Virus record (IMG/VR): IMGVR_UViG_3300021959_006017
Coordinates: 1 to 64,000 of that record
DNA: 64,000 nt
Source of the DNA: a virus
Reading direction: 5' to 3' (one strand)
In this document: positions 1,622 to 24,960 of the stretch, one piece after another
Layout of the letters: every line of letters begins with the position of its first letter
How positions within the stretch are numbered: the first letter of the stretch is position 1
Made by a program: the position numbers and the translations under genes
Notes under the pieces: model-generated
What the model saw: the letters and a program-made list of their open reading frames with translations, nothing else
What the model was told of the DNA's origin: nothing
Databases searched by the model: none

Positions 1622-4600
1622 ATGGCTGATTTTAAACTTGGTAGAATTAGATTTATATGGAAGGGGGACTGGAGTGCCTCAACTACATATTACAAAGATG
1701 ACATCGTAAGGAACGGTGGTAATACATATGTATGTATAACAGGACATACATCTAGTATTAGTTTTCCAGATGATCAGTCAAACTGGAATAAAATAACAGA
1801 TGGCCAAGAGTGGAAAGCAGATTGGGCAGTTAGCACATATTATAAAGAAAACGATATTGTAAAATATGGCGGTTATTTATATATTGCAAATACTGCACAC
1901 ACTTCAGCAGTAACAGCCACAGCAGGATTAGAAAACGATCAAGCTAAATGGGATTTGTATGCTGAAGGTTTTGATTATCAAGCAGATTGGCAGCCAAACT
2001 ATCGCTACAAAATTAACGACATTGTAAAGTATAACTCAACTATCTATCTATGTACAGAAGGCCATACTTCGGCAGCAGACTCACTAACAGGTCTTGAAGT
2101 AGATCAAGACAAGTGGGATGTGTTTTCTCAAGGTGTAAGTTGGCAGGGAGATTGGCAAACTAACACAAGATATCTTGTAAATGATATTATTCGTTACGGT
2201 GGTAGAACTTATCTTTGTAACACAGGTCATGTAAGTGCTTTAACAGCAGCACTAGGACTAGAAGCAAACCAAGCAAGTTGGGATATTTTCCATGACGGTA
2301 TTGAATACAAAGGAGAATGGGCCTCTGGTACAAGATATAAACTAAACGATTTAGTAAAATCAGGCGGAGGTATTTGGATTTGTACAACATACCACACAAG
2401 TCAAAACTACCTATCAGATGATGAAGCAAAATGGGCTCAGTTTACTGAAGGTTTAGAGTTTGAAGATAGCTGGAGCGGCACACGTAGATATCAAGCAGGC
2501 GATTTTGTAACATACGGTGGTTACTCATATGTTGCTATTACAAATAACGTAGGACAACGTCCATCGGATAATCCAACAGATTGGGATCTATTTACTACTG
2601 GTTTTAGACTAGTTGGAGATTGGGGCGAAGATTCAAGTAGTTATGAATATTTTGTAGGTGATGTTGTACGTCAAGGTGGATATACATATCTATGTATTCT
2701 TGATCATACAGGACAAGAGCCTCCGAACACAACATACTGGGAAAGACTTAACCAAGGTATTGAATGGAACGATGCCTGGACAGATGCAACCGAATATGAT
2801 TTGGGCGATGCAGTGCGCTACGGAAGCAGCAGTTATATTGCAGTGCAAAAACATACTTCAGACGAAGTTGGTACACAAAACAGACCAGATCAAGATGTAA
2901 CAGGAGACTACTGGAACCTGCTATCAGGAGGAGGCGAAACACTTCCGCTTACAACTGAAGGTGATATAGTTTACTACGGCGGCGCAGGTCCAACAAGATT
3001 ACCAATCGGTGATCCAGGGCAATCACTAAGAGTAAACGCAACAGGTGATGCACCCGAGTGGAGCTTCTTTGGAAAGATTAATCACGTATGGTATACATCA
3101 ACAGACAATGGGGTTGACAGTCCAGCACCAAACTACGGTACTACACTTGATCAACCTTGGAAAACTATACGCTATGCACTAGAGCAGATTGAAAAAGGTG
3201 CTCTATATCCAAACGCTGCATATATACTCGAAGCAAATAGAGCATTTATACAAGCAGAAACAGTTGAGTGGGTTGACTATCAGATTGCAAACGTTATTGC
3301 TCCATTTACTGGATCATTTACATACACAAAAGAAACATGCCGTAGAGACGTAGGTCAAATCATTGATGCACTTATTTGGGATTTAACACACGGCGGTAAT
3401 AAGCGTATGCGTGATGCTACACTTACTTACTTTGACAGCAGCGGCGACTTAATCGCAGAAATTGCTGACGAAGATGGTGAAACATCAGCAGCACTAAAGT
3501 ATACACTAGAACTTATTGATAGTGCTATACTACAAAGTATTGATCCTGCAACAAACTATCAAACTGAAAATGCTGTAGGTAGTCCGATAACACAAGTAAA
3601 AGATTTAGCTACATATCCTGAAGAGACTGGTGCACAAACTAGACTTGATACACTGATGGCTATTGTAACAGATGCACTAGATGCAGAAAGCTCGGCAGAT
3701 GTTCCTGCTCAAGTTATTCCAAACAATTCATTGTTTGTTAAAACTGGAATTTACTCAGAAACACTTCCGATGGTTGTTCCTGTACAAACAGCAGTTGTAG
3801 GCGATGAACTACGTTCAACACGTATTACGCCAGCAGGCAGCTTAGTAGATAGTGGTGATACAACTTATACACTAGCGGGTATTGCTAGACTACAATCACT
3901 TACAGAAGATATTGTTACAAATACAGCAGTTACAAAGACAGCAGGTAATGCTGAATCACAAGTTACAACCCGTCCAGCAGGCGGAGCTAATCCTGCTATT
4001 CATGCAGCTGATTTGTGGCAACAAATTTATGATTATATTAACTGGGGTGTAAACGGTGCATCAGGTGACTCAACAGAACCTGTATTTAATGGAACAAATA
4101 CTCCTCAAACTTCAACAGACTTCACATATGCTGTTGAAGTACTAGAAGCAAACAGAACATTCTTAGTAGAGGAAGTTATTGCATACATTGCTGCTACTTA
4201 TCCTGCATATACATACGACGAAGACAGGTGTCGTAGAGATACAAACAGATATATTGACGCTATCAAATATGATCTTATATATCAGCCAGATTCTTCAGCA
4301 ACACCAGTAGAAACTAAAGGTAACTATAAGTCACTTAGTGCAGCAAGACTATATGTAAATGCTGTAAACGGATCAACTACAGAAGATATGTTCTATATGC
4401 GTAATGCTACTGGGCTAAGAAATTGTACACTAGCTGATTTAACAGGTACATTAAGTGCTGCTAATCAGTACGGAACAAGTCGTCCTACAGCTGGAGCATA
4501 TGTATCATTAGATCCAGGTTGGGGACCAGATGATTCTAGAGTTTGGGTAACAAACAAATCCCCATATGTACAAAATGTTTCAACATTCGGTACAGGTTGT

Positions 4601-6463
4601 ATAGGTCTAAAAGTAGACGGTGATCTACACAACGGTGGTAACGACTCTATTGTTGCTAACGACTTTACACAAATCTTAAGTGACGGTATTGGTTATTGGG
4701 TTACAAACTTAGGACGTTCAGAACTTGTATCTGTGTTTACATATTATAACCATATTGGTTACCTAGCAGAGAACGGTGGTAAGATCCGTGCAACAAACGG
4801 TAACAACTCATACGGTGACTTTGGTTCAGTATCAGAAGGTATTGATGACACAGAAGTTCCTGTAACTGCTGATGTAGACAACAGGACACTTGATGCTATT
4901 GTTGATAGTGTTATGACAGATGGTGATGATGTACTTGTTCTCAACTACTTAAATGCAGGACAGAACTATACAGCAGGCGGCACAACTATTAGCATTAGCG
5001 GTGAAGGTTATGGCTTAGGTACTGTAACACCTACTACTGTAAATGGTGGCGTCTTTCAAGTTAGAATGTTAGATACTGATGTAGACGGAGACAGCACAGC
5101 AGACACTGGCGGAGCCGATTATAAAGGTTCAACAAATAGTGCGCAGGAAGGTGATGCAACTAGTATTACTATTTCAAACACTGATACTGCTTTAAGTGCG
5201 CAATACATTGGTATGGCAATATATATTACAGCAGGAACAGGTGCAGGACAGTATGGATACATTAACAGCTATAACCAAGGTACAAAGGTTGCTCAAGTAT
5301 ACAAAATGAGTGATGGTACAGCTGGTTGGGATCATGTGATCGGAAATGCTATTGTAAGTGCGCTTGATGCTACAACTGAATATTCAATCGAACCGAGATT
5401 AACACTTAGTGCTCCACCAAGTGGATTATACGCAGATACTGCAAAAGGTCGTGCTATTATAGCTGACGAACAAATTGCACGTATTGTTATTTGGGATCCA
5501 GGCACAGGATACACAAGTGCTCCTACACTAACTATTACAGATCCTAACAATACTATCGAAGCACCTACTCAAGTTAGAATAGGCGACGGTGTACTTGCAC
5601 AACCTACATTCTCAGACAGAGGTACAGCATTTACTACTGCTACAGCAGAAGTAAGCGGAGACGGTTATGCAGATCAGTATCAACCAGGAGATTTTGTAGA
5701 AGTATCAAATCTTACAGAAGAACCACAGCCTGGTTCAAATATTGTGTTTAACCATTTACCAGATAAAGTGTTTAAACTTGTTACAGTAAGAGATTTTTCA
5801 GGTGCAGGTCCTTATTCAGCACAGTTACAAGTGTCACCAGAACTTACTATTACAGAAGCACCTGAACACAACGAATCCTTAGAAATGAGAATACGTTACT
5901 CTCAAGTACGTCTAACAGGTCATGACTTCTTAGACATTGGTACTGGTAACTTTTCAGAAACAAACTATCCAAATCAACCTTTGTATGATTCGGATCCAGA
6001 AAAAGAAACTACAGAATCAGGAGGAGGACGAGTGTTCTTCACCTCAACGGACCAAGATGGTAACTTTAGAGTTGGCGACTTGTTCTCCGTTGAACAGAGT
6101 ACTGGTATTGCTACACTAAATGCTGATGCATTTAATATCAGTGGTCTACAAGAACTGTCACTAGGCGAACTTGGATTAGGAAGCACAGGTGCGGTGATTA
6201 GTGAGTTTAGTACAGATGGTACGTTTACTGCTAATAGTGATAATATTGTTCCAACGCAAAAAGCTATTAAAACATATATTACTTCACAAATTGGTGGCGG
6301 CGCAGCAACACTAAACGTAAATAGTGTAACTGCTGGTCAGATTACTATTAGTGGTCAAGAAATAACCACTAACCTTGAAACCAAAATTGATGTTCAAACA
6401 GTAATGAACTTTGAAAAAGGTGTTACGGGCGTACCAGTAGCAATGAATTATTTCTTATCATAA
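1622..6463 (+). CDS. Giant tail fibre with eight N-terminal CBM-like repeats
   Basis: 1613 residues. Residues ~12-440 are eight tandem ~50-residue units of the form W..dW...t.Y...DiV.ygg..Y.c...Ht, ending in W and a turn; this resembles the small carbohydrate-binding (CBM5/12-like) fold of chitinases and phage fibres. The middle is rich in Ser, Thr and Gly, looks like beta-helix, and twice carries a C-x-RD...DL motif also found in the 1937-residue gene at 15547. The C-terminal ~200 residues match the end of the preceding gene. I infer a long receptor-binding fibre or baseplate appendage. GGAG precedes the ATG, with a late promoter upstream. Naming beyond fibre-like would be a guess. Confidence 0.75.
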   Translation: MADFKLGRIRFIWKGDWSASTTYYKDDIVRNGGNTYVCITGHTSSISFPDDQSNWNKITDGQEWKADWAVSTYYKENDIVKYGGYLYIANTAHTSAVTATAGLENDQAKWDLYAEGFDYQADWQPNYRYKINDIVKYNSTIYLCTEGHTSAADSLTGLEVDQDKWDVFSQGVSWQGDWQTNTRYLVNDIIRYGGRTYLCNTGHVSALTAALGLEANQASWDIFHDGIEYKGEWASGTRYKLNDLVKSGGGIWICTTYHTSQNYLSDDEAKWAQFTEGLEFEDSWSGTRRYQAGDFVTYGGYSYVAITNNVGQRPSDNPTDWDLFTTGFRLVGDWGEDSSSYEYFVGDVVRQGGYTYLCILDHTGQEPPNTTYWERLNQGIEWNDAWTDATEYDLGDAVRYGSSSYIAVQKHTSDEVGTQNRPDQDVTGDYWNLLSGGGETLPLTTEGDIVYYGGAGPTRLPIGDPGQSLRVNATGDAPEWSFFGKINHVWYTSTDNGVDSPAPNYGTTLDQPWKTIRYALEQIEKGALYPNAAYILEANRAFIQAETVEWVDYQIANVIAPFTGSFTYTKETCRRDVGQIIDALIWDLTHGGNKRMRDATLTYFDSSGDLIAEIADEDGETSAALKYTLELIDSAILQSIDPATNYQTENAVGSPITQVKDLATYPEETGAQTRLDTLMAIVTDALDAESSADVPAQVIPNNSLFVKTGIYSETLPMVVPVQTAVVGDELRSTRITPAGSLVDSGDTTYTLAGIARLQSLTEDIVTNTAVTKTAGNAESQVTTRPAGGANPAIHAADLWQQIYDYINWGVNGASGDSTEPVFNGTNTPQTSTDFTYAVEVLEANRTFLVEEVIAYIAATYPAYTYDEDRCRRDTNRYIDAIKYDLIYQPDSSATPVETKGNYKSLSAARLYVNAVNGSTTEDMFYMRNATGLRNCTLADLTGTLSAANQYGTSRPTAGAYVSLDPGWGPDDSRVWVTNKSPYVQNVSTFGTGCIGLKVDGDLHNGGNDSIVANDFTQILSDGIGYWVTNLGRSELVSVFTYYNHIGYLAENGGKIRATNGNNSYGDFGSVSEGIDDTEVPVTADVDNRTLDAIVDSVMTDGDDVLVLNYLNAGQNYTAGGTTISISGEGYGLGTVTPTTVNGGVFQVRMLDTDVDGDSTADTGGADYKGSTNSAQEGDATSITISNTDTALSAQYIGMAIYITAGTGAGQYGYINSYNQGTKVAQVYKMSDGTAGWDHVIGNAIVSALDATTEYSIEPRLTLSAPPSGLYADTAKGRAIIADEQIARIVIWDPGTGYTSAPTLTITDPNNTIEAPTQVRIGDGVLAQPTFSDRGTAFTTATAEVSGDGYADQYQPGDFVEVSNLTEEPQPGSNIVFNHLPDKVFKLVTVRDFSGAGPYSAQLQVSPELTITEAPEHNESLEMRIRYSQVRLTGHDFLDIGTGNFSETNYPNQPLYDSDPEKETTESGGGRVFFTSTDQDGNFRVGDLFSVEQSTGIATLNADAFNISGLQELSLGELGLGSTGAVISEFSTDGTFTANSDNIVPTQKAIKTYITSQIGGGAATLNVNSVTAGQITISGQEITTNLETKIDVQTVMNFEKGVTGVPVAMNYFLS
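1655..2941 (+). repeat. Eight tandem ~50-residue repeats (protein-level)
   Basis: Eight degenerate units at residues ~12-440 of the fibre, each with two Trp, a Y...DIV.YGG..Y core and usually a HTS motif. Unit length varies from about 49 to 57 residues through loop insertions such as the TAGLE or TGLE segment in units 2-4. DNA identity between units is low, so this is an old duplication rather than a recent one. Confidence 0.8.
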
Positions 6464-6478
6464 CGGAGACAAAACAAA

Positions 6479-6799
6479 ATGGCAACAGGAATATTAGGAA
6501 CAGCAGATATGGCAGCAGGTACAGAAACAGTTCTGTATACTGTTCCTGCAGATACATTTGCTGTAACAAGTGTTTCGTTCTGTAATAGAGGTAATGCTGC
6601 AATCACTGTACGACTTGCAGTGTGCGTAGCAGACACCGCAACAGCAGACGAATATATAGAATATGACACCACTATACAAGCTAAAGGTGTCTTGGAAAGA
6701 ACAGGTATTGTTCTAGATGCAACCAAAAGAATAGTAGCTTATTCAAGTGCTGAAAATGTTTCAGCAGTTGCATTTGGAATTGAGACCTCAACGGCATAA
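6479..6799 (+). CDS. Small virion-type beta protein, function unknown
   Basis: 106 residues starting 15 bases after the giant fibre, with GGAG in the gap. The sequence alternates hydrophobic and polar residues (TVLYTVPADTFAVTSV, then NRGNAAITVRLAV), typical of a beta-sandwich fibre or baseplate appendage. Similar short proteins accompany fibre genes in marine T4-like phages. No enzyme motif is visible. Its stop overlaps the late box of the next gene. I infer an accessory virion protein from position and composition only. Confidence 0.6.
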   Translation: MATGILGTADMAAGTETVLYTVPADTFAVTSVSFCNRGNAAITVRLAVCVADTATADEYIEYDTTIQAKGVLERTGIVLDATKRIVAYSSAENVSAVAFGIETSTA

Positions 6800-6825: not shown

Positions 6826-7158
6826 ATGGGAAGATTTATTACAGAGACCGGAACAGCTTCTACAGTAATTCGTGAAGTAAGTGGAACCTATACAGCCGAA
6901 GTTAATGACCGTATTCTTGCAGATACAACAGTCAGTGCTTTTACAATCACTTTACCTGTTAACTCAAGTTTGTTAGTAAACGACACTATTCAAATAATTG
7001 ATGTTACTTCTAGTTTTGGAACTAATGCAGTAACATTATCAAGAAACGGTTCACTAATACAAGGCGCAAGTGATAATTTAGATTTAGACCTAAATGGTGC
7101 ATCTATTACACTTATGTATAGCGGATCAACATACGGTTGGATTATTATAGGAACATAA
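6826..7158 (+). CDS. Small fibre-associated virion protein, function unknown
   Basis: 110 residues. The C-terminal two thirds (LPVNSSLLVNDTIQIIDV, a SRNGSLIQGASDNL turn, then SITLMYSGSTYGWIII) is a short beta-rich module that recurs at the tips of phage fibres and in cyanophage structural proteins, to my knowledge. The gene has its own late promoter and SD (AAGGA), and stops 3 bases before the first Cys-rich gene. No catalytic residues are seen. I infer a structural role. Confidence 0.6.
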   Translation: MGRFITETGTASTVIREVSGTYTAEVNDRILADTTVSAFTITLPVNSSLLVNDTIQIIDVTSSFGTNAVTLSRNGSLIQGASDNLDLDLNGASITLMYSGSTYGWIIIGT

Positions 7159-7161
7159 GAT

Positions 7162-8046
7162 ATGGCATCACTACGATCACTACTAGACAAAGGAAGTGTT
7201 GACTCATTAAATGCAGGACCGCAGCCAGCCTATATGGAAGGTGACTACGAGTCAATGTACTTTCATACAAGATGTACACAGCAATATGAAACATCATATG
7301 GAAAAAACTGTATTGACTGGTGGCAACTACCTTCCGACGTAACAAGCACAGTTACTATGGAAGTCTGGGGCGGCGGCGGAGGCGGCGCTGGTAGTGGAAC
7401 GTGTGGTTGTAACTTTGGTTGGCCAGGCGGGTCTGGAGCATATGTAAAGAAAACATTTACACAAGCAGAAATTGCAACAGCAAAAGGAACTTGCTATTGT
7501 ATGTGTATTTCTCCAGCAAGTTGTTGCTCGCCAAACGAAACTTGTGGATACAAAGGCTGCAAAAGCTGGATTATAGGTTCAGGACTAAGCAACTTCTGTG
7601 CAGATGGCGGAGAGCCGGGTTGTACGTTGTTCTGTATGACAGGATGTGGCGGTAACTGGACAGGTATGTGTCCACACCCAAATGATGGAACATGTGCTTG
7701 TTATTATGATTGCACAGATCCAACAGTAACTGGTGTTCCAGGTAGACATGGATTTTTATACGCAAACTTCCATTGTGACAGTAACTGGTGTTATTATTCA
7801 CAAATATTTGCAGGACCACCGTTTGACGGTAACAACGATACTGTTTATCATTTAGTAAGATTCTGCGGTAACGTAGAAGCGTATCATGATAGATGTAAAG
7901 CAGGCGGCTTTATGGCAGCAGGCATGAGAGGCGATAGCGAAAATATTCCAATCGGAGTAGGTGGTAACAGTACTAGAGTATGCGGCGACGGTTGTTGCTG
8001 CGGCTGGGGTGGCGGTCCTGGTTTAGTAAGGATAAATTGGAAGTAA
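7162..8046 (+). CDS. Cys/Gly-rich protein 1 of a tandem trio
   Basis: 294 residues with about 27 cysteines. Order: a short N-terminal MASLRSLL tag; a beta segment ending in a WGGGGGGAG run near residue 72; a PGGSGAY segment; a region dense in CC, CxC and CxxC; NFCADGG; and a C-terminal CGDGCCCGW..GG.GLVRINWK end. The Gly-run followed by GGSG(A/S) resembles Gly-rich receptor-binding fibre domains, but the cysteine load is exceptional. There is no signal peptide. It sits in the fibre operon, 1 base before paralogue 2, so I infer a virion surface protein. It could bind metal or form disulfides after lysis; neither is shown. Confidence 0.6.
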   Translation: MASLRSLLDKGSVDSLNAGPQPAYMEGDYESMYFHTRCTQQYETSYGKNCIDWWQLPSDVTSTVTMEVWGGGGGGAGSGTCGCNFGWPGGSGAYVKKTFTQAEIATAKGTCYCMCISPASCCSPNETCGYKGCKSWIIGSGLSNFCADGGEPGCTLFCMTGCGGNWTGMCPHPNDGTCACYYDCTDPTVTGVPGRHGFLYANFHCDSNWCYYSQIFAGPPFDGNNDTVYHLVRFCGNVEAYHDRCKAGGFMAAGMRGDSENIPIGVGGNSTRVCGDGCCCGWGGGPGLVRINWK

Positions 8047-8047
8047 A

Positions 8048-8953
8048 ATGGCAGGATTAAGAGACTTATTTGGAAAATATGAACAAGTAACACAAAGCGA
8101 AATCGATGGCGGAACTATTGAAGTTACCGGCTATGACGGTAAAATGTTTACTGTTGACACATTCTGTCATCCATCGATGAATGGTCCTACTTGTTGTGAT
8201 GCTTACAACGCAAACTTAGTTTGTTACTGGTGTGTGCCAGCAGGCACAACTGGCATGAAGATTGAAATCTGGGGCGGTGGCGGCGCCGGCGCAGGTATGC
8301 GTGGCTGTCATGGAGGTATTCCAGGTGGATCTGGTTCTTGGGCTGTAAAAAGTATTACTAGCACAGATTTTTCAGACGGTGACTGCTACTTGTTGTGTTC
8401 AGGAAACGGCGGACGTTGGTGCTGTTGTCAATGTATTGGTTGCCGTGGATGTAAATCATATGTTACAGGTAACGGATTAACTAACTTTTGTGCAGATGGC
8501 GGATTTGGCGGATATGTTAACTGCTTCTGCTATATTAGACAGTGTTGTATTTCAGGACCAAACGGTGACGGACGTGGCGTAGACTATGGCTGGCACTATA
8601 TGGGTCGTAGCGGATGCTGTTCAGAATACTTTGGTGCAGACTGCGGCGAATATGGTGTTCCAGGTTGGTATACAAACTATTGTGGTTGCGGATCAGATTG
8701 TACACCGTGTTGGGTAAAACAATGGGTTCCAAACTCACCAGGTATAGTTTCAACCGGCGGAATGCATAACGGTGTTCGTGTACAAGGTTGGGCATGTAAT
8801 AATGAATACACACAATGTTCAGTAAACGGACCAGATCACGGACACTATAACTTCCCAAGAGCAATGGGCGGTGTAAGTATGACAACATGTGGTGATGGTA
8901 CTTGCTGTGGTAACCCAGGCGGTTCTGGACAAGTAAGAATCACATATAAATAA
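8048..8953 (+). CDS. Cys/Gly-rich protein 2 of a tandem trio
   Basis: 301 residues with about 31 cysteines. Shares with its neighbours the MA(G/S)LR(D/S)L N-terminal tag, the VPAGTT...IEIWGGGG core, PGGSGSW, a YLLC...CCCQC stretch, NFCADGG and the C-terminal CGDGTCCGNPGGSGQVRITYK end. Spacing between cysteines is not conserved between paralogues outside these blocks, suggesting fast divergence of exposed loops on a common beta scaffold. The ATG follows the upstream stop by 1 base, which implies translational coupling. Probable appendage or decoration protein of the virion; function unknown. Confidence 0.6.
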   Translation: MAGLRDLFGKYEQVTQSEIDGGTIEVTGYDGKMFTVDTFCHPSMNGPTCCDAYNANLVCYWCVPAGTTGMKIEIWGGGGAGAGMRGCHGGIPGGSGSWAVKSITSTDFSDGDCYLLCSGNGGRWCCCQCIGCRGCKSYVTGNGLTNFCADGGFGGYVNCFCYIRQCCISGPNGDGRGVDYGWHYMGRSGCCSEYFGADCGEYGVPGWYTNYCGCGSDCTPCWVKQWVPNSPGIVSTGGMHNGVRVQGWACNNEYTQCSVNGPDHGHYNFPRAMGGVSMTTCGDGTCCGNPGGSGQVRITYK

Positions 8954-8962
8954 GGACAGGAA

Positions 8963-9796
8963 ATGGCAAGTTTAAGAGATTTACTAAACATAGAAACAGC
9001 AGCAGATCTAGCAGGACAAGCCGGCGCTGTACCTGGAAAACAATGGGTAGCACAGGCTACATGTCAGCAGTGTCAGTTTGACTCTTACGGTGACTGGTGT
9101 TGTAACGTGTTTATTGTTCCATCAGGTACATCAGAGATTATTTTCGATGTATGGGGCGGCGGTGGCGGCGGTGGCCGTTCAGCATGCTGTGGCGCAGGTG
9201 GACCAGGTGGATCCGGTGCTTGGGCACGTAGATGTATTAATAGTGAAGAGTTTGGCATAGGCGATTGTTATAGAGTTACAGTCGGTCGTGCTACTTACTG
9301 CTCACAAGATCAGACAGGATGCGCAGGTAACTATAGCTGTGTATGTAGTATTGAAAACGACTTTGTAAGAGTTTGTTCAGAAGGCGGCGGACGTGGATGC
9401 TGGTATTGTTTTGCAGATTGCTGTACAACTAATGCATACTGCACATGTGAGCAAAAATGTGCTTACGGTGGAGACATTAACGTAAAAGGACACCCAGGTT
9501 GTTTCTGGCACAGATGTTTAGAAGATCACTGCTATGACAAGATAGGTTTTGCTTATCCAGGCGGACTTAACAACAAATGTGGCGGCGTTGTTTGGACACA
9601 AGTATGCTGTAAATATGCACACGGCTCAGCACTACAAAACTATGCAATAGGTATACTTGGTAGTACTGCAGGAAGCCAATATTGCTGTAACGGTTATATG
9701 CCAGGAGTAGGCGGCGGAACAATGCCAACAGAAGACGGTGTATGTCGCTGTGGACTACAAGGTACACCAGGATTAGTAAGAGTAACATATAGATAA
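8963..9796 (+). CDS. Cys/Gly-rich protein 3 of a tandem trio
   Basis: 277 residues with about 30 cysteines. Same block order as the two genes upstream: MASLRDLL tag, VPSGTS...FDVWGGGGGGG, GPGGSGAW, then a Cys-dense region and a C-terminal G.CRCGL.GTPGLVRVTYR end. The NFCADGG block of its neighbours is replaced by VCSEGGGRGC. AGGA occurs just upstream of the ATG. Adjacent cysteine pairs (CC) recur seven times. I infer a third diversified copy of the same virion surface protein; I do not recognise a characterised homologue. Confidence 0.6.
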   Translation: MASLRDLLNIETAADLAGQAGAVPGKQWVAQATCQQCQFDSYGDWCCNVFIVPSGTSEIIFDVWGGGGGGGRSACCGAGGPGGSGAWARRCINSEEFGIGDCYRVTVGRATYCSQDQTGCAGNYSCVCSIENDFVRVCSEGGGRGCWYCFADCCTTNAYCTCEQKCAYGGDINVKGHPGCFWHRCLEDHCYDKIGFAYPGGLNNKCGGVVWTQVCCKYAHGSALQNYAIGILGSTAGSQYCCNGYMPGVGGGTMPTEDGVCRCGLQGTPGLVRVTYR

Positions 9797-9808: not shown

Positions 9809-10684
9809 ATGGAAATTATAACAGAAGATTTTACATACAATGTTCCAGATAGTTACCTAAGTACTGCAACAACAGAAGGTAAAACTAACACTCTTACCTA
9901 TACAGGACCTAATGAAATATGGGTATTTGTTGATAAAGTTTCAGGAAAACTGGACTGGAGTATGCATGCACTTATTAACTTTGACGAAGGAATGCAAGAA
10001 ATAGCAATAACTCATGCAGGACAATATCATAAACCAATACTTGTTCATTTCGATCAAAATCCTTTGATTTGTTGGGCAATGTATGGCGATCTTGATTGGG
10101 ATTCTTTAGGAGAAAAAACGTTCACACTTGACGGAGAAACTGAGCCTTATTATAGACACCCTGATCCTTTACCACCACAACTGATTTATGATTATCCTTC
10201 TTTTGTATATTTGTTTGATAGCAGCACTTGGAAACAACCTTATCCTATGCAAACACCTAAACAAACACAGGACGATGTTGAAGGATATATAGCTGCATAC
10301 ATAGCAGATATTGAAAAACATATTGCTGACTCTAACAGTGGTTTAACAGCTGATCAAAAAACAACAATGACAGCAGCTAAAACTACAGCAGAAGGTATTG
10401 TAGCAAAATATGGTCCAGACGGAGCAAATGTTCCTTATTGGATGTGGCCACCTTGTCCTCCTACACCAGATTGGGATCCTAATATGGAAGAAGACACTGA
10501 TGTACCAGAAGCAGAACGTTGGGATTCAGCAGCTGATGGCTCAGAAGGTGCGGGTGCTGAAACTAACTATCAGCCAGAAAATAACGAACCTACTCCAGCA
10601 TCAGAAAGCGAAGCATTTCCTAACACAGATAGCCAGCAAACTGAAGCAGGTGAACTACCAGACGAAGACGCTCCAACAGAATAA
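9809..10684 (+). CDS. Uncharacterised acidic protein ending the fibre operon
   Basis: 291 residues, not recognised. The N-terminal ~140 residues are beta-rich with several Trp. A Pro/Tyr-rich link (residues ~110-150) is followed by a helix with Lys and Ala, a WMWPPCPPTPDWDP segment near residue 215, and a strongly acidic Glu/Pro/Ser/Thr tail of ~70 residues. It follows the Cys-rich trio by 12 bases and is closed by a strong terminator, so it belongs to the same transcript. The acidic disordered tail suggests an assembly or chaperone role for its neighbours; that is inference only. Confidence 0.55.
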   Translation: MEIITEDFTYNVPDSYLSTATTEGKTNTLTYTGPNEIWVFVDKVSGKLDWSMHALINFDEGMQEIAITHAGQYHKPILVHFDQNPLICWAMYGDLDWDSLGEKTFTLDGETEPYYRHPDPLPPQLIYDYPSFVYLFDSSTWKQPYPMQTPKQTQDDVEGYIAAYIADIEKHIADSNSGLTADQKTTMTAAKTTAEGIVAKYGPDGANVPYWMWPPCPPTPDWDPNMEEDTDVPEAERWDSAADGSEGAGAETNYQPENNEPTPASESEAFPNTDSQQTEAGELPDEDAPTE

Positions 10685-10757: not shown

Positions 10758-11345
10758 ATGGAAGATCCAAGAGATGAATATCGTATATTACCAAATCTTT
10801 TACCTAAATCCTATGCAGATCTTTTAGAAGCTGAACTTTCTAAAATACATTGGTATTGGTATCCAAGTGCTTCAGGAGATGTTGCTGTAGATCCCGATGA
10901 CAAAAATATTTTTGATTCTCCCCAAATGCAACATGTTTTTATTGAAGAAAATGAACCAATATCTCCGTATGCTTCTCTAATACAACCAGTAGTTTGGTTT
11001 TTAGAAAAAGAAATGCAAATGAGTATTAAAAATATTGTACGTGTAAAAGCAAATCTTTTAATGCCAGGTAGATCAAACTTAGATAACTATAATATTCCTC
11101 ATGTTGATTCTCCAAGCGACGATTATATTAGCATGGTTTATTATGTAAACAATGCAGACGGTGATACTAAAATATTTCACAAAACACTTGACGAAGGACA
11201 CAAAGACTTATATACTATAGCAGGCATTAGTCCTAAGAAAGGAAGAGCTGTAATGTTTAAATCAAATAGATTTCATGCAAGCACACCCCCGTTTAAAGCT
11301 GATAAAAGAATAGTATTAAACTTTGTATTACAACCAGGAACATAA
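10758..11345 (+). CDS. 2OG-Fe(II) oxygenase (prolyl-hydroxylase type)
   Basis: 195 residues. The C-terminal half has the double-stranded beta-helix signature: HVDSPSDDYISMVYYVN supplies the H-x-D iron ligands (His ~115, Asp ~117). Then GRAVMFKSNRFHAS supplies the distal His (~175), and an Arg in KRIVLNFV is placed for 2-oxoglutarate. Such enzymes hydroxylate proteins, sugars or bases using Fe(II), O2 and 2-oxoglutarate, and are frequent in marine T4-like phages. It heads a three-gene run with a GT9-like transferase and a carbamoyltransferase, suggesting glycan or nucleotide-sugar modification. The substrate is unknown. The start is set by a late box 5 bases upstream. Confidence 0.8.
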   Translation: MEDPRDEYRILPNLLPKSYADLLEAELSKIHWYWYPSASGDVAVDPDDKNIFDSPQMQHVFIEENEPISPYASLIQPVVWFLEKEMQMSIKNIVRVKANLLMPGRSNLDNYNIPHVDSPSDDYISMVYYVNNADGDTKIFHKTLDEGHKDLYTIAGISPKKGRAVMFKSNRFHASTPPFKADKRIVLNFVLQPGT

Positions 11346-12393: not shown

Positions 12394-14187
12394 ATGAGCG
12401 AAGAAAATAAAGACATTTGGATTGCAGGTATTACAAGAGGACATAATGGAGGTGTCTGTTTATTAAAAAACGGCGAAGTTATATTTGCTACTGAAGAAGA
12501 ACGTTATTCTCGGTACAAGTATGATGGCGGACCACTAGCTAGTATGCTTAAAATTAAAGAATATACAGATAAACTTGATTATATAGTTGTTGCTCACACG
12601 CAAAGTTTAAAAGATACAGCAGGTATTATTGATTTCTCAGGCGATGACATGTATACTGGTTGGGCAAGAAAGTTAGGCCTTATAGAAAGAAAGAATGTAG
12701 ATTTAAGAAATCACCCACAAGTAATGGATCTAAGCCACATGCATCATAGACTACATGCTGCTTGTGCTTTTTATAGATCTGGATTTGACGAAGCAGTAGC
12801 CGTTATTGTTGATGGCGCCGGTACTTTTATTCCAATGCAAATAAATGAGAATGAACATGCATACGGATTTGAAGTTGAAAGTTTATTCGACTGTTCTTAT
12901 CCTGCAAACTTTGCTACTTTATTTAAAAGTATAGGACTTAAAAATGGCGGAGTTCGTACTCAAATAGATAATGTAGAAACTTTTGGAGAAGAATACGAAA
13001 GCGTTATACATGATAGAGCAGGTATTGTTAAAGTGTATGAAGCTGTTACTGAGTTTTGTGGATTTCCTGCTATTGAAGCAGGTAAAACTATGGGACTATT
13101 TCCGTACGGTGAACCTAACGAAAATATTCCACCGTTGTTTGAAAAAGGCGGTCGTGTTAGATTAAGTAATAGAAATGTTATTATACCAACGTATCCTAAC
13201 TCTGCACTAGTAAACTTTCAACAATATGATGAACTAAAAGACGGTTTAGCAAGTGACTTAACTAAGTTACAAAATCGCAGAGATCTAGCATATGCTGTCC
13301 AGACACAATCACAAGATCAGGTTGTAGAATATATTCGTCAGGCTGTTGCAATGAGTGGTAAAAAGAATGTTGTTATTTCAGGCGGCTATGGATTAAACTG
13401 TGTTGCTAACTATCATTACTTAGAAGCACTCAAAGACGAAGATATTAACATATATGTAGAACCTGTTAGTAATGATGCAGGCACAGCTATAGGTGGTGCA
13501 CTAATGACATATTACCATTTGTCTGAAAGCACTGAAAATAAAGGTATTAACCATAACTTATATTTAGGTATTCCTTATACTTATGAAATAGACGAGATTG
13601 AATCATTAGCACAAGAATACGGAGCAACAGTAACAGATGCTACAAATGAAGATGTAGTTGATTTAATCACTAGTAAAAACATTGTAAGTGTATTCCAAGG
13701 AGGATCAGAATCAGGACCTAGAGCACTTGGTAACAGAAGTATACTTTATGATCCAACAGATCCAGATGGAAAAGATTTTGTTAATACTGTAAAACGCAGA
13801 GAATACTTCCGTCCGTTTGCTGGTAGTATCCTTGAAGAAGATGTACACGAATGGTTTGATTTACGTGGTATGGAAAGCTCACCTACAATGATGTATGCTG
13901 TAAACTGTCAGCCAGGCATTGAAGAAAAGATTCCTGCTATTATTCATGTAGACGGTACTTGTCGTATACAAACTGTTAATAGAGAACAAAATGCAAACTA
14001 TTATGATTTGATTAAAGCCTTTAAAGAAAAGACAGGCTGTCCGATTATCTTTAATACTAGCTTTAACTTAGGCGGTGAACCATTAGTAGAAACACTAGAA
14101 GATGCATTTTGGACACTACAGCAAAGTGATATTGAATACTGTTATCTTCCAGAATATGGTAAGTTGTTGTCAATCAAAAACGCATAA
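12394..14187 (+). CDS. O-carbamoyltransferase, NodU/CmcH/TobZ family
   Basis: 597 residues, near the family length. The N-terminal YrdC-independent Kae1-like domain starts GITRGHNGGVCLLKNGEV and EEERYSR, and contains the metal-binding HMHHRLHAA (~residues 110-119) and a VDGAG phosphate loop. The C-terminal domain carries the signature FQGGSESGPRALGNRS near residue 435 and a RPFAGSI segment. These enzymes transfer a carbamoyl group from carbamoyl phosphate via carbamoyl-adenylate to sugar hydroxyls. It lies 2 bases after the GT9-like gene, so the pair probably makes and decorates one glycan. Similar genes occur in marine T4-like phages. The acceptor is unknown. Confidence 0.88.
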   Translation: MSEENKDIWIAGITRGHNGGVCLLKNGEVIFATEEERYSRYKYDGGPLASMLKIKEYTDKLDYIVVAHTQSLKDTAGIIDFSGDDMYTGWARKLGLIERKNVDLRNHPQVMDLSHMHHRLHAACAFYRSGFDEAVAVIVDGAGTFIPMQINENEHAYGFEVESLFDCSYPANFATLFKSIGLKNGGVRTQIDNVETFGEEYESVIHDRAGIVKVYEAVTEFCGFPAIEAGKTMGLFPYGEPNENIPPLFEKGGRVRLSNRNVIIPTYPNSALVNFQQYDELKDGLASDLTKLQNRRDLAYAVQTQSQDQVVEYIRQAVAMSGKKNVVISGGYGLNCVANYHYLEALKDEDINIYVEPVSNDAGTAIGGALMTYYHLSESTENKGINHNLYLGIPYTYEIDEIESLAQEYGATVTDATNEDVVDLITSKNIVSVFQGGSESGPRALGNRSILYDPTDPDGKDFVNTVKRREYFRPFAGSILEEDVHEWFDLRGMESSPTMMYAVNCQPGIEEKIPAIIHVDGTCRIQTVNREQNANYYDLIKAFKEKTGCPIIFNTSFNLGGEPLVETLEDAFWTLQQSDIEYCYLPEYGKLLSIKNA

Positions 14188-23164: not shown

Positions 23165-23714
23165 TAATATCCTCTAATTCAAAAAAGAAAACTTGTGTTA
23201 ACCTAGAATCTTCTAGTTTTGTTCCAAATCCTGTAGTAGTACTTCTATGATATATTTCTCCGTTATAAAGAATCAATCTATTATAGATATTTCCTACTCT
23301 TGCCATTTCTTCCCACTCGTTTGGGTTTAAATGATCTTCGGTAGTGTTATCGCGCCCGTACATTATTTTTGTATTTTTATGCCTATAAAGACTTGTTCCG
23401 TATTCAATGGGTGCATCGGGTGTCAAGTATAGTACACCTGCCCACGGCTCTAAATCGTGGTGTATCCAGTTATCTTCAGGGCCTTCTGCAGACGTAACTA
23501 TCTGAAACTGTTTACTAGCCATTTTGTGTATAGGTTTTTTACCGAATATAGAAATAAACTGTTCTTCAAGAAATTGATTATAAGGTTCACTTTTCCATCT
23601 AGATCTAACACCTGGATGAGTTCCTGCTCCGGCAAACGTTTGTTTGAGAGCAAAGTTTCTAATCTTGTCAGGATCTGGTAAAAAGTTATCTATGACTATA
23701 AGATTAAGATCCAT
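23139..23714 (-). CDS. 2OG-Fe(II) oxygenase-like protein (DUF6445-like)
   Basis: 191 residues. NWIHHDLEPWAGVLYLTPDAP holds an H-x-D pair, IYHRSTTTGFG the distal His, and SRLTQVFFF the Arg after ~10 residues, the order expected for a 2-oxoglutarate oxygenase jelly-roll. The N-terminus (LIVIDNFLPDPDKIRNFAL) matches the small family I know as DUF6445. It sits between hldE (11-base overlap) and hldD (26-base overlap), so a role in modifying the heptose product or its acceptor is reasonable. Substrate unknown. This is the second putative 2OG enzyme of the window and is not closely similar to the one at 10758. Confidence 0.65.
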   Translation of the reverse strand: MDLNLIVIDNFLPDPDKIRNFALKQTFAGAGTHPGVRSRWKSEPYNQFLEEQFISIFGKKPIHKMASKQFQIVTSAEGPEDNWIHHDLEPWAGVLYLTPDAPIEYGTSLYRHKNTKIMYGRDNTTEDHLNPNEWEEMARVGNIYNRLILYNGEIYHRSTTTGFGTKLEDSRLTQVFFFELEDINENTSNGS

Positions 23715-24960
23715 TTATTTCTCCAATCAACTTTGTTGTAGAATAGCCGTCTACAGTAGGAACAATATGCACAGGCGCAATATCATGTCCTACAACTTGT
23801 TCTACCGTATAATCGCCACCTTTTACTATTAGGTCGGGTTGTATAGTTTTGATTAACTCATAAGGAGTATCGTCTGTAAATGTAACTACTTCGTCTACCC
23901 AAGGTAACATTTCAAGTTGTGCAACTCTTGTTTGCACATCATTTATAGGGCGATCGCTACCTTTTAATCTTTGTACACTAGCATCTGTATTAACACCAAC
24001 AACTAGTTTATTTCCTAAACTGCGAGCTTCTTTTAATAACTGTAAGTGTCCTTTGTGTAGTATATCAAAAACACCGTTTGTAAAAACCACACCTTTAGTA
24101 AGGTCTTCATGTGTTACAACATGTACACCTCTATATTCAACACTTCGTGCAGCAGCAAAACATGCTTTTGCAGCAGCGTCAAAAACATCTATATCTTGAT
24201 GAATATAATATGCAAGAACTGCAAGTACAGTATCACCTGCACCTGTTACATCTGCTACTTCTTTTACAGGTTCTTGATAGTGTTTGATTCTGCCATCTTC
24301 ATTCATTACAGTAAGCCCATTCTTGCCGTCTGTAACTACTAACCAAGTCCAGTTATACTTTTTCATTTTTAGCAGTGCAGTTTCTTTACGGAAATCGCCA
24401 AACCACTGTTTGTATTCTTTCATATTAGGTTTAACAAGAAACGCACCTTTATAGTATTCAGGATCTTGTTTAGGATCCACAAGTACTTTGCAGCCTCTTT
24501 TAACTAGTGTAGGCACAGTGTCTTTTTTTATAGTACCTTTGTTATAGTCACTTATACAAACAAGATCGTTTGTTACTTGATCATTAATAAGTCTATTAAA
24601 TGCTTCCGTGCCTGTATAATGTTCTTCACGATCCCAACGTACAATGTGTTGCCCGCCTTGTCCTACTAGTCTATTTTTAGTAGTTGTAACCTTGCTATCA
24701 AGTGTTGCTCTAAAATCTATTTTGTTATAAGGTTTAAAACAATCAATAACTCTATAACCTTCTCTGTCTGGCGCTATAGTTCCGTAGATAGCTATATTTC
24801 CATTAAGACTTGCAATATTAAGTGCAAGGTTAGCAGCACCGCCGGGACAAAACTTTTGTTCACTTTCTTTAAGCACAGGAACAGGTGCTTCAGGACTGAT
24901 TCTTTTGGCTTTGCCAATAATCCATCTGTCCAACATAATATCGCCATAAACTCTAATCAT
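23704..24960 (-). CDS. hldE: Bifunctional heptose-7-P kinase / heptose-1-P adenylyltransferase
   Basis: 418 residues. Residues 1-280 are a PfkB-type kinase: GDIMLDRWI, PGGAANLALN at ~39-48, and DVTGAGDT at 237-244 with the catalytic Asp. Residues 290-418 are a cytidylyltransferase-fold adenylyltransferase: VFTNGVFDILHKGH (HxGH-type motif at 302-305), VGVNTDASV, RLKG..RPIND and a YSTTKLI end. This two-domain order is specific to HldE. It phosphorylates D-glycero-manno-heptose 7-phosphate and later joins the 1-phosphate to ATP. It leads a five-gene overlapping operon and has its own sigma-70 promoter, TATAAT lying only 5 bases before the ATG. Confidence 0.93.
   Translation of the reverse strand: MIRVYGDIMLDRWIIGKAKRISPEAPVPVLKESEQKFCPGGAANLALNIASLNGNIAIYGTIAPDREGYRVIDCFKPYNKIDFRATLDSKVTTTKNRLVGQGGQHIVRWDREEHYTGTEAFNRLINDQVTNDLVCISDYNKGTIKKDTVPTLVKRGCKVLVDPKQDPEYYKGAFLVKPNMKEYKQWFGDFRKETALLKMKKYNWTWLVVTDGKNGLTVMNEDGRIKHYQEPVKEVADVTGAGDTVLAVLAYYIHQDIDVFDAAAKACFAAARSVEYRGVHVVTHEDLTKGVVFTNGVFDILHKGHLQLLKEARSLGNKLVVGVNTDASVQRLKGSDRPINDVQTRVAQLEMLPWVDEVVTFTDDTPYELIKTIQPDLIVKGGDYTVEQVVGHDIAPVHIVPTVDGYSTTKLIGEINGS

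Follow-up and report, generated by a model that had tools for sequence, protein, structure and literature searches.

Receptor-binding proteins determine which phage pairs with which bacterium, and in large marine cyanophages they are mostly annotated as "hypothetical". The window analyzed here, the whole stretch of 64,000 nucleotides at positions 1 to 64,000 of IMG/VR virus record IMGVR_UViG_3300021959_006017, belongs to a 236,751-base record of an aquatic phage and carries in its fibre operon three consecutive genes for proteins exceptionally rich in cysteine. The locus raises the question of what such proteins do beside a tail fibre, and how a reducing cytoplasm can produce a chain carrying some 30 cysteines that then matures once released. 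We propose, with somewhat better than even confidence, that the three are paralogous receptor-binding fibre tips that are folded by a chaperone and whose loops are cross-linked through cysteines after release, the simplest form being a 1:1:1 heterotrimer. The tips would then be specific and widespread receptor-binding candidates in the cultivated phages S-SSM7, S-CAM1, S-CAM3 and P-SSM2. In open-access papers we found no description, test or virion proteomics of a cysteine-rich fibre-tip family.

Gene content of the fibre locus

The genes considered, with the three cysteine-rich proteins named tips after their proposed role, are as follows.

1622..6463, + strand: large tail fibre, 1613 aa; PHROG 9851 (tail fiber), E 1e-223
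6479..6799, + strand: small fibre-cluster protein, 106 aa; weak matches to tail-fibre PHROGs
6826..7158, + strand: small fibre-cluster protein, 110 aa; matches to tail-protein PHROGs
7162..8046, + strand: tip 1, 294 aa, 27 Cys (9.2%); PHROG 4205, E 3e-49
8048..8953, + strand: tip 2, 301 aa, 31 Cys (10.3%); PHROG 4205, E 4e-50
8963..9796, + strand: tip 3, 277 aa, 30 Cys (10.8%); PHROG 4205, E 2e-39
9809..10684, + strand: probable tail-fibre assembly chaperone, 291 aa; PHROG 9740
10758..11345, + strand: 2OG-Fe(II) oxygenase adjoining the cluster; PF13640
11348..12391, + strand: heptosyltransferase-like neighbour; PF01075 below its cut-off, PHROG 8954
12394..14187, + strand: Nol-like carbamoyltransferase, conserved neighbour; PF16861/PF02543

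The three tip ORFs are all intact and are separated by 1-9 bases. The first-pass annotation had described a trio of these lengths and cysteine numbers with repeated CC and CxC on a common scaffold, and the ORF counts agree: tips 1, 2 and 3 contain 3, 6 and 5 CC pairs and 5, 4 and 3 CxC, and share the MA.LR.L start, WGGGG, PGGSG and the G..G.VRI.YK end. The cysteine load is indeed exceptional, at 9.2-10.8% against a median of 1.3% and a 95th percentile of 2.3% in the other ORFs of at least 250 aa in the fetched loci. Identity to tip 2 is 34% for tip 1 and 31% for tip 3, and all three tips match PHROG 4205, a family of unknown function, over nearly their whole length. Pfam PF21722 (Gly_rich_2, gathering cut-off 24.3 bits) is matched by tip 3 at 27.3 bits and by tip 2 at 18.3 bits; tip 1 has no match to it and clusters in the tree with other first-position tips. 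Chance or a compositional artefact as the source of the cysteine load is ruled out by the ORF baseline together with the conservation of the cysteines and a Trp-Gly6 scan (both below).

The large fibre, presumed to be the carrier of the tips, occupies an orthologous position in S-CAM1/3, P-SSM2 and S-SSM7, and genes similar in size to the two small ones that follow it lie at equivalent places in S-CAM1/3 and P-SSM2. Eight Pfam matches to the carbohydrate-binding module CBM_5_12 fall in its N-terminal part. The gene at 9809..10684 probably encodes a tail-fibre assembly chaperone: S-SSM7_118, which shares PHROG 9740, has further matches to PF16778 (Phage_tail_APC) and to PHROGs of tail fiber assembly, and a profile of the chaperones of other clusters, built without the window protein, recovers it at E 1.5e-27. 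Its own Pfam scan is blank and a Foldseek search of the PDB with its model (pLDDT 86) found nothing, so that the assignment rests on sequence families. Synteny and this chaperone partner, together with the fold match described below, support the first-pass suggestion of a fibre-operon adhesin.

Downstream, a 2OG-Fe(II) oxygenase-like gene also follows the tip-chaperone cluster in S-SSM7 and Sf-FS3 (11245-11904 in L011 and 11189-11821 in L013); such an enzyme could conceivably modify the PG-rich tips. The Nol-like carbamoyltransferase is 48-62% identical to those of tip-carrying cyanophages.

Fold of the head and placement of the cysteines

An AlphaFold model of tip 2, built as a monomer from a 94-sequence alignment, has a mean pLDDT of 78 and a pTM of 0.78, with low confidence in the long loops 165-189. 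Its best Foldseek match in the PDB is chain Q of the tail tip of mycobacteriophage Bxb1, a siphophage (PDB 9d93, E 1.5e-7). The tail fibre gp24 of cyanophage Pam3 (PDB 7ypx, 7yfw) comes next at E 2.4e-6 with TM 0.48; matches to this type of tip have E 2.4e-6 and 1.6e-5, TM 0.47-0.56 and probability 1.00, a moderate fold match at 15-16% identity. Next and weaker (TM about 0.2-0.3) comes the TNF-like/glycine-rich domain of ALK/LTK, an animal receptor whose likeness to the tips is limited to architecture and whose resemblance to Pam3 gp24 was noted in PMC9608196. The best predicted viral matches are S-CAM3 and P-SSM2 proteins and many phage proteins named "glycine-rich domain"; S16 gp38 (6F45) is not among the best 50 PDB matches listed for the model, and the family profile has no match at E 10 among the sequences of solved structures. 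Structure prediction, which the first-pass annotation had suggested as a check, thus sets tip 2 beside the Bxb1 tail tip and Pam3 gp24.

In Pam3 the TNF-like/glycine-rich head of gp24 serves receptor recognition, and the chaperone gp25 folds gp24; gp24 is part of the virion and gp25 was not detected there (PMC9608196). The tips resemble this pair in having a TNF-like and glycine-rich head, a chaperone gene of their own and a length of about 280 residues. They differ in that Pam3 has a single homotrimeric tip protein (PMC9608196) with a long helical shaft, whereas the window encodes three paralogues with about 11% cysteine and a short tag. The long N-terminal shaft is absent from the tip 2 model, the N-terminus of which has only short helices at 4-8 and 16-20, predicted with low confidence. 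By analogy, tips 1-3 would be receptor-binding subunits at the tip of the 1622-6463 fibre, each with a short N-terminal docking tag nearly without cysteine followed by the head, a predicted TNF-like beta-sandwich continued by glycine-rich loops, whose folding would be assisted by the 9809-10684 chaperone. The tips might instead be accessory folding proteins of the fibre that stay out of the virion, as T4 gp38 does, and several glycine-rich phage homologues are labelled "tail fiber assembly" (the PHROG 863 match of a relative; Syn9 gp38/39). We regard this as very improbable, as the gene adjoining the tips already specifies a chaperone distinct from them, and as gp24 of Pam3, which shares the fold, is a virion component while the Pam3 chaperone is not (PMC9608196).

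Cysteine is the best conserved residue of the family. In pairs 50-88% identical its retention is 0.912, against 0.822 for glycine and 0.740 for tryptophan, and when the scoring bonus for cysteine is removed, it still reaches 97% at a pairwise identity of about 85% and 88% at one of about 57%. In the 94-sequence alignment, cysteine makes up more than 90% of each of nine well-filled columns. Residues 1-30 are nearly free of it (1 of 2579 residues, and 25 of 7740 in another count), and within the head it makes up 12% of loops and 8.5% of strands. The CCC columns at tip 2 positions 85-87, flanked by the WGGGG and PGGSG glycine runs, are 91-97% cysteine, and positions 285-287 in the last loop are 94, 77 and 51% cysteine; by comparison with Pam3, both triplets would lie at distal loop apices. 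The first-pass annotation had also seen "rapid divergence in loops but not in the scaffold", and this was not found: the mean frequency of the majority residue is 0.52 in loops and 0.47 in strands, the loops being no less conserved because the conserved cysteines and glycines sit in them.

A scan for Trp-Gly6 that is blind to cysteine served as a check against bias from relatives chosen by similarity. The cysteine content of its matches is two-peaked: seven ORFs have 9.4-12.5%, all of them members of the cysteine-rich tip family, one unrelated ORF has 5.4%, and the others have at most 2.5%. Ordinary glycine-rich tips have 33% glycine and 0.4% cysteine, as against 19% and 11% in the cysteine-rich tips; cysteine-poor examples are Syn9 gp36 and gp38 and Mosig_00062 (Syn9 gp38 and Mosig_00062 have 0.8% each). 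These compositions suggest that cysteine replaces part of the role of the glycine lattice, and cysteines at the loop apices would share the stabilizing job that the lattice does in ordinary tips.

Spread of the family and the number of tips

Three tips are carried by S-CAM1, S-CAM3, S-SSM7 and Sf-FS3; S-SSM6a, P-SSM2 and P-SSM5 carry tips too, two in the case of P-SSM2, and beyond some model cyanophages the triplet recurs in dozens of uncharacterised phages. PHROG 4205 holds the window, S-CAM1 and S-SSM7 types, and PHROG 35878 (unknown function) the P-SSM2 type; for neither family did the papers searched yield an account of structure or cysteine content. The order of fibre, tips and Nol-like carbamoyltransferase is the same in five regions. 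Two alignment-based scans of viral contigs gave at least about 80 loci each, so the family is larger than the sample. Bacterial and archaeal genomes yielded a single match, in a metagenome-assembled genome labelled Euryarchaeota (L284, PAZU01000047.1); this tip gene is 67% identical to the query, the ORF layout around it resembles the whole tip-chaperone-carbamoyltransferase cluster, and the contig is probably a mis-binned phage.

The copy-number survey that the first-pass annotation had also suggested covered 86 distinct complete clusters among the matches listed, without those interrupted by contig ends; 82 of them have exactly three tips. The constancy of three, the chaperone and the wide spread of the family had not figured in that annotation. 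With T for a tip and c for a chaperone, the order is TTTc in 61 clusters, TcTTc in 20 and TTTcc in one. The exceptions are P-SSM2 and L258 with two tips, L059 with four and L053 with at least four, so that three is not an absolute need. Tips of a shorter kind, about 230-265 aa, occur in the order tip-chaperone-tip-tip-chaperone (L067, L085, L086, L087, L090, L092, L096), still three to a cluster.

Within each main lineage of a tree built from 43 triplets, the tips group by position, and the clades of the different positions branch alike. Each of four tested lineages unites its own three positions (SH-aLRT 97, 98, 73 and 99, the third not firm), and AU tests reject a single ancient triplication with plain descent thereafter (p 3e-130, 2e-129 and 2e-72 with first, second and third positions united, respectively). 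The triplet therefore arose repeatedly, or recombination homogenised the copies of each lineage; the number came back to three either way. The N-terminal tag is specific to the lineage and not to the position. The tag shared within a genome was considered as a sign of co-adaptation, and this signal vanishes once lineages are compared separately.

The simplest account of the threes would be a three-fold fibre end occupied by three different chains. A precedent is the tail of the DSLV2 virophage, in which three consecutive paralogues reportedly assemble 1:1:1 into a heterotrimer with Synechococcus-binding activity (PMC12724248). The tips share with it the three consecutive paralogues and the position-specific clades (within lineages, not across them), but the DSLV2 proteins have a gp37-like fibre fold, and neither cysteine nor glycine is mentioned in the text of PMC12724248. 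A 1:1:1 heterotrimer of the tips is plausible by analogy; it would cap the fibre at its three-fold end, and the three different chains would be retained because all three are required together. It is also possible, though in our view doubtful, that three separate homotrimeric tips compete for one docking site on the fibre, in which case virions would bear a mixture of tips and their host range would widen. Pam3 gp24 is itself a homotrimer (PMC9608196), a lineage-specific tag could make one site usable by all three tips, and TcTTc clusters provide two chaperones for three tips; yet optional alternatives should vary in number, and 82 of the 86 clusters have three, while the position-specific clades and the matching branching within lineages suggest that no tip is dispensable.

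State of the cysteines and setting of the phage

The number of cysteines shows no even bias: it is even in 122 chains and odd in 121, and the triplet totals are even in 40 cases and odd in 41. Single cysteine changes are as frequent as double ones, and pairwise co-loss, sought as a sign of disulfides in a test of low power, gave no signal. With no even bias and single changes common, not every cysteine can be in an obligate pair. Compared with shuffled sequences, CC is enriched 1.85-fold and CxC 1.26-fold in 100 representatives, which are related to each other, so that the deviations are not strict probabilities; CxxC is not in excess in them (0.95-fold). Parity, pair loss and CxxC counts do not discriminate disulfides from metal.

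Our preferred reading is that disulfides form after release and that some cysteines stay unpaired. After exit from the reducing cell, the cysteines would cross-link adjacent loops and perhaps chains, and the cross-links would permit longer and more varied loops to be displayed to the host surface. Disulfide cross-linked virion proteins have a precedent in the Agrobacterium phage Milano, the structural proteins of which contain 2.1% cysteine and form a disulfide network (PMC10811340); that network lies in the sheath, tube, baseplate and fibre attachment, as opposed to the tip head with its content of about 11%. Of the chemistries raised by the first-pass annotation, disulfide armour may apply, cysteine being strongly retained, yet the even-number bias and paired loss that would go with it are missing; metal loading has no support from motifs, with CC and not CxxC in excess. 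Binding of zinc, iron or copper, as a structural element or in a "Ferrojan horse" tip, is nevertheless compatible with the odd cysteine numbers and the tolerated single changes, and PMC11705849 proposes fibres of marine phages that bind iron. Some second-position tips of the S-CAM type end in CxCW..DCxxHxCN (nine distinct cases, for example 9001-9933 in L005 and 9001-9909 in L004), a possible metal site or cap. This C-terminal tail is absent from the window proteins, histidine makes up only 2.1% of the tips and CxxC is at chance level, and we consider metal binding improbable. The lack of a parity or pair-loss signal, and the fact that no spacing is more enriched than vicinal CC, would suit free thiols that exchange with a host envelope protein, or cysteines acting as plain small packing residues. 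Both seem unlikely to us, given that ordinary glycine-rich tips such as Syn9 gp38 and Mosig_00062 manage without cysteine and that dozens of thiols per tip are expected to oxidise in oxic water.

No thioredoxin match is present in the phage record, and its one glutaredoxin match is little informative on cysteine chemistry. A "cysteine dioxygenase" that other phages encode beside the cluster was set aside as a clue to this chemistry, the P-SSM2 protein concerned (14981-15337 in L012) matching only Cupin_2; the name it bears in P-SSM2 may mislead.

PA5oct-like Pseudomonas phages have the terminases most similar to that of the phage (about 53%); for the terminase as well as for one large structural protein, the nearest phages are PA5oct-like ones and Agrobacterium phage Atu_ph07. 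The 1622-6463 fibre is closest to cyanophage and pelagiphage Mosig fibres. The record, which may be incomplete, has no match to psbA/psbD or to high-light-inducible (hli) type proteins. With a cyanophage-like fibre, a PA5oct-like terminase and no psbA match, the fibre module has probably moved between backbones, and the phage is probably a hybrid with a cyanophage-like fibre locus on another backbone. A more far-reaching form of the heterotrimer proposal, which we hold only tentatively, would join these points: a heterotrimeric TNF-like tip with up to about 88 cysteines cross-linked within and between chains, the covalent links partly substituting for the glycine lattice, and a set of three that was rebuilt or homogenised by recombination in several lineages and moves as a mobile module between unrelated backbones.

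On the minus strand of the window, 23704-24960 encodes a fusion of a PfkB sugar kinase with a cytidylyltransferase-like domain, similar to HldE, which with the heptosyltransferase-like gene and the carbamoyltransferase may form a surface-sugar module.
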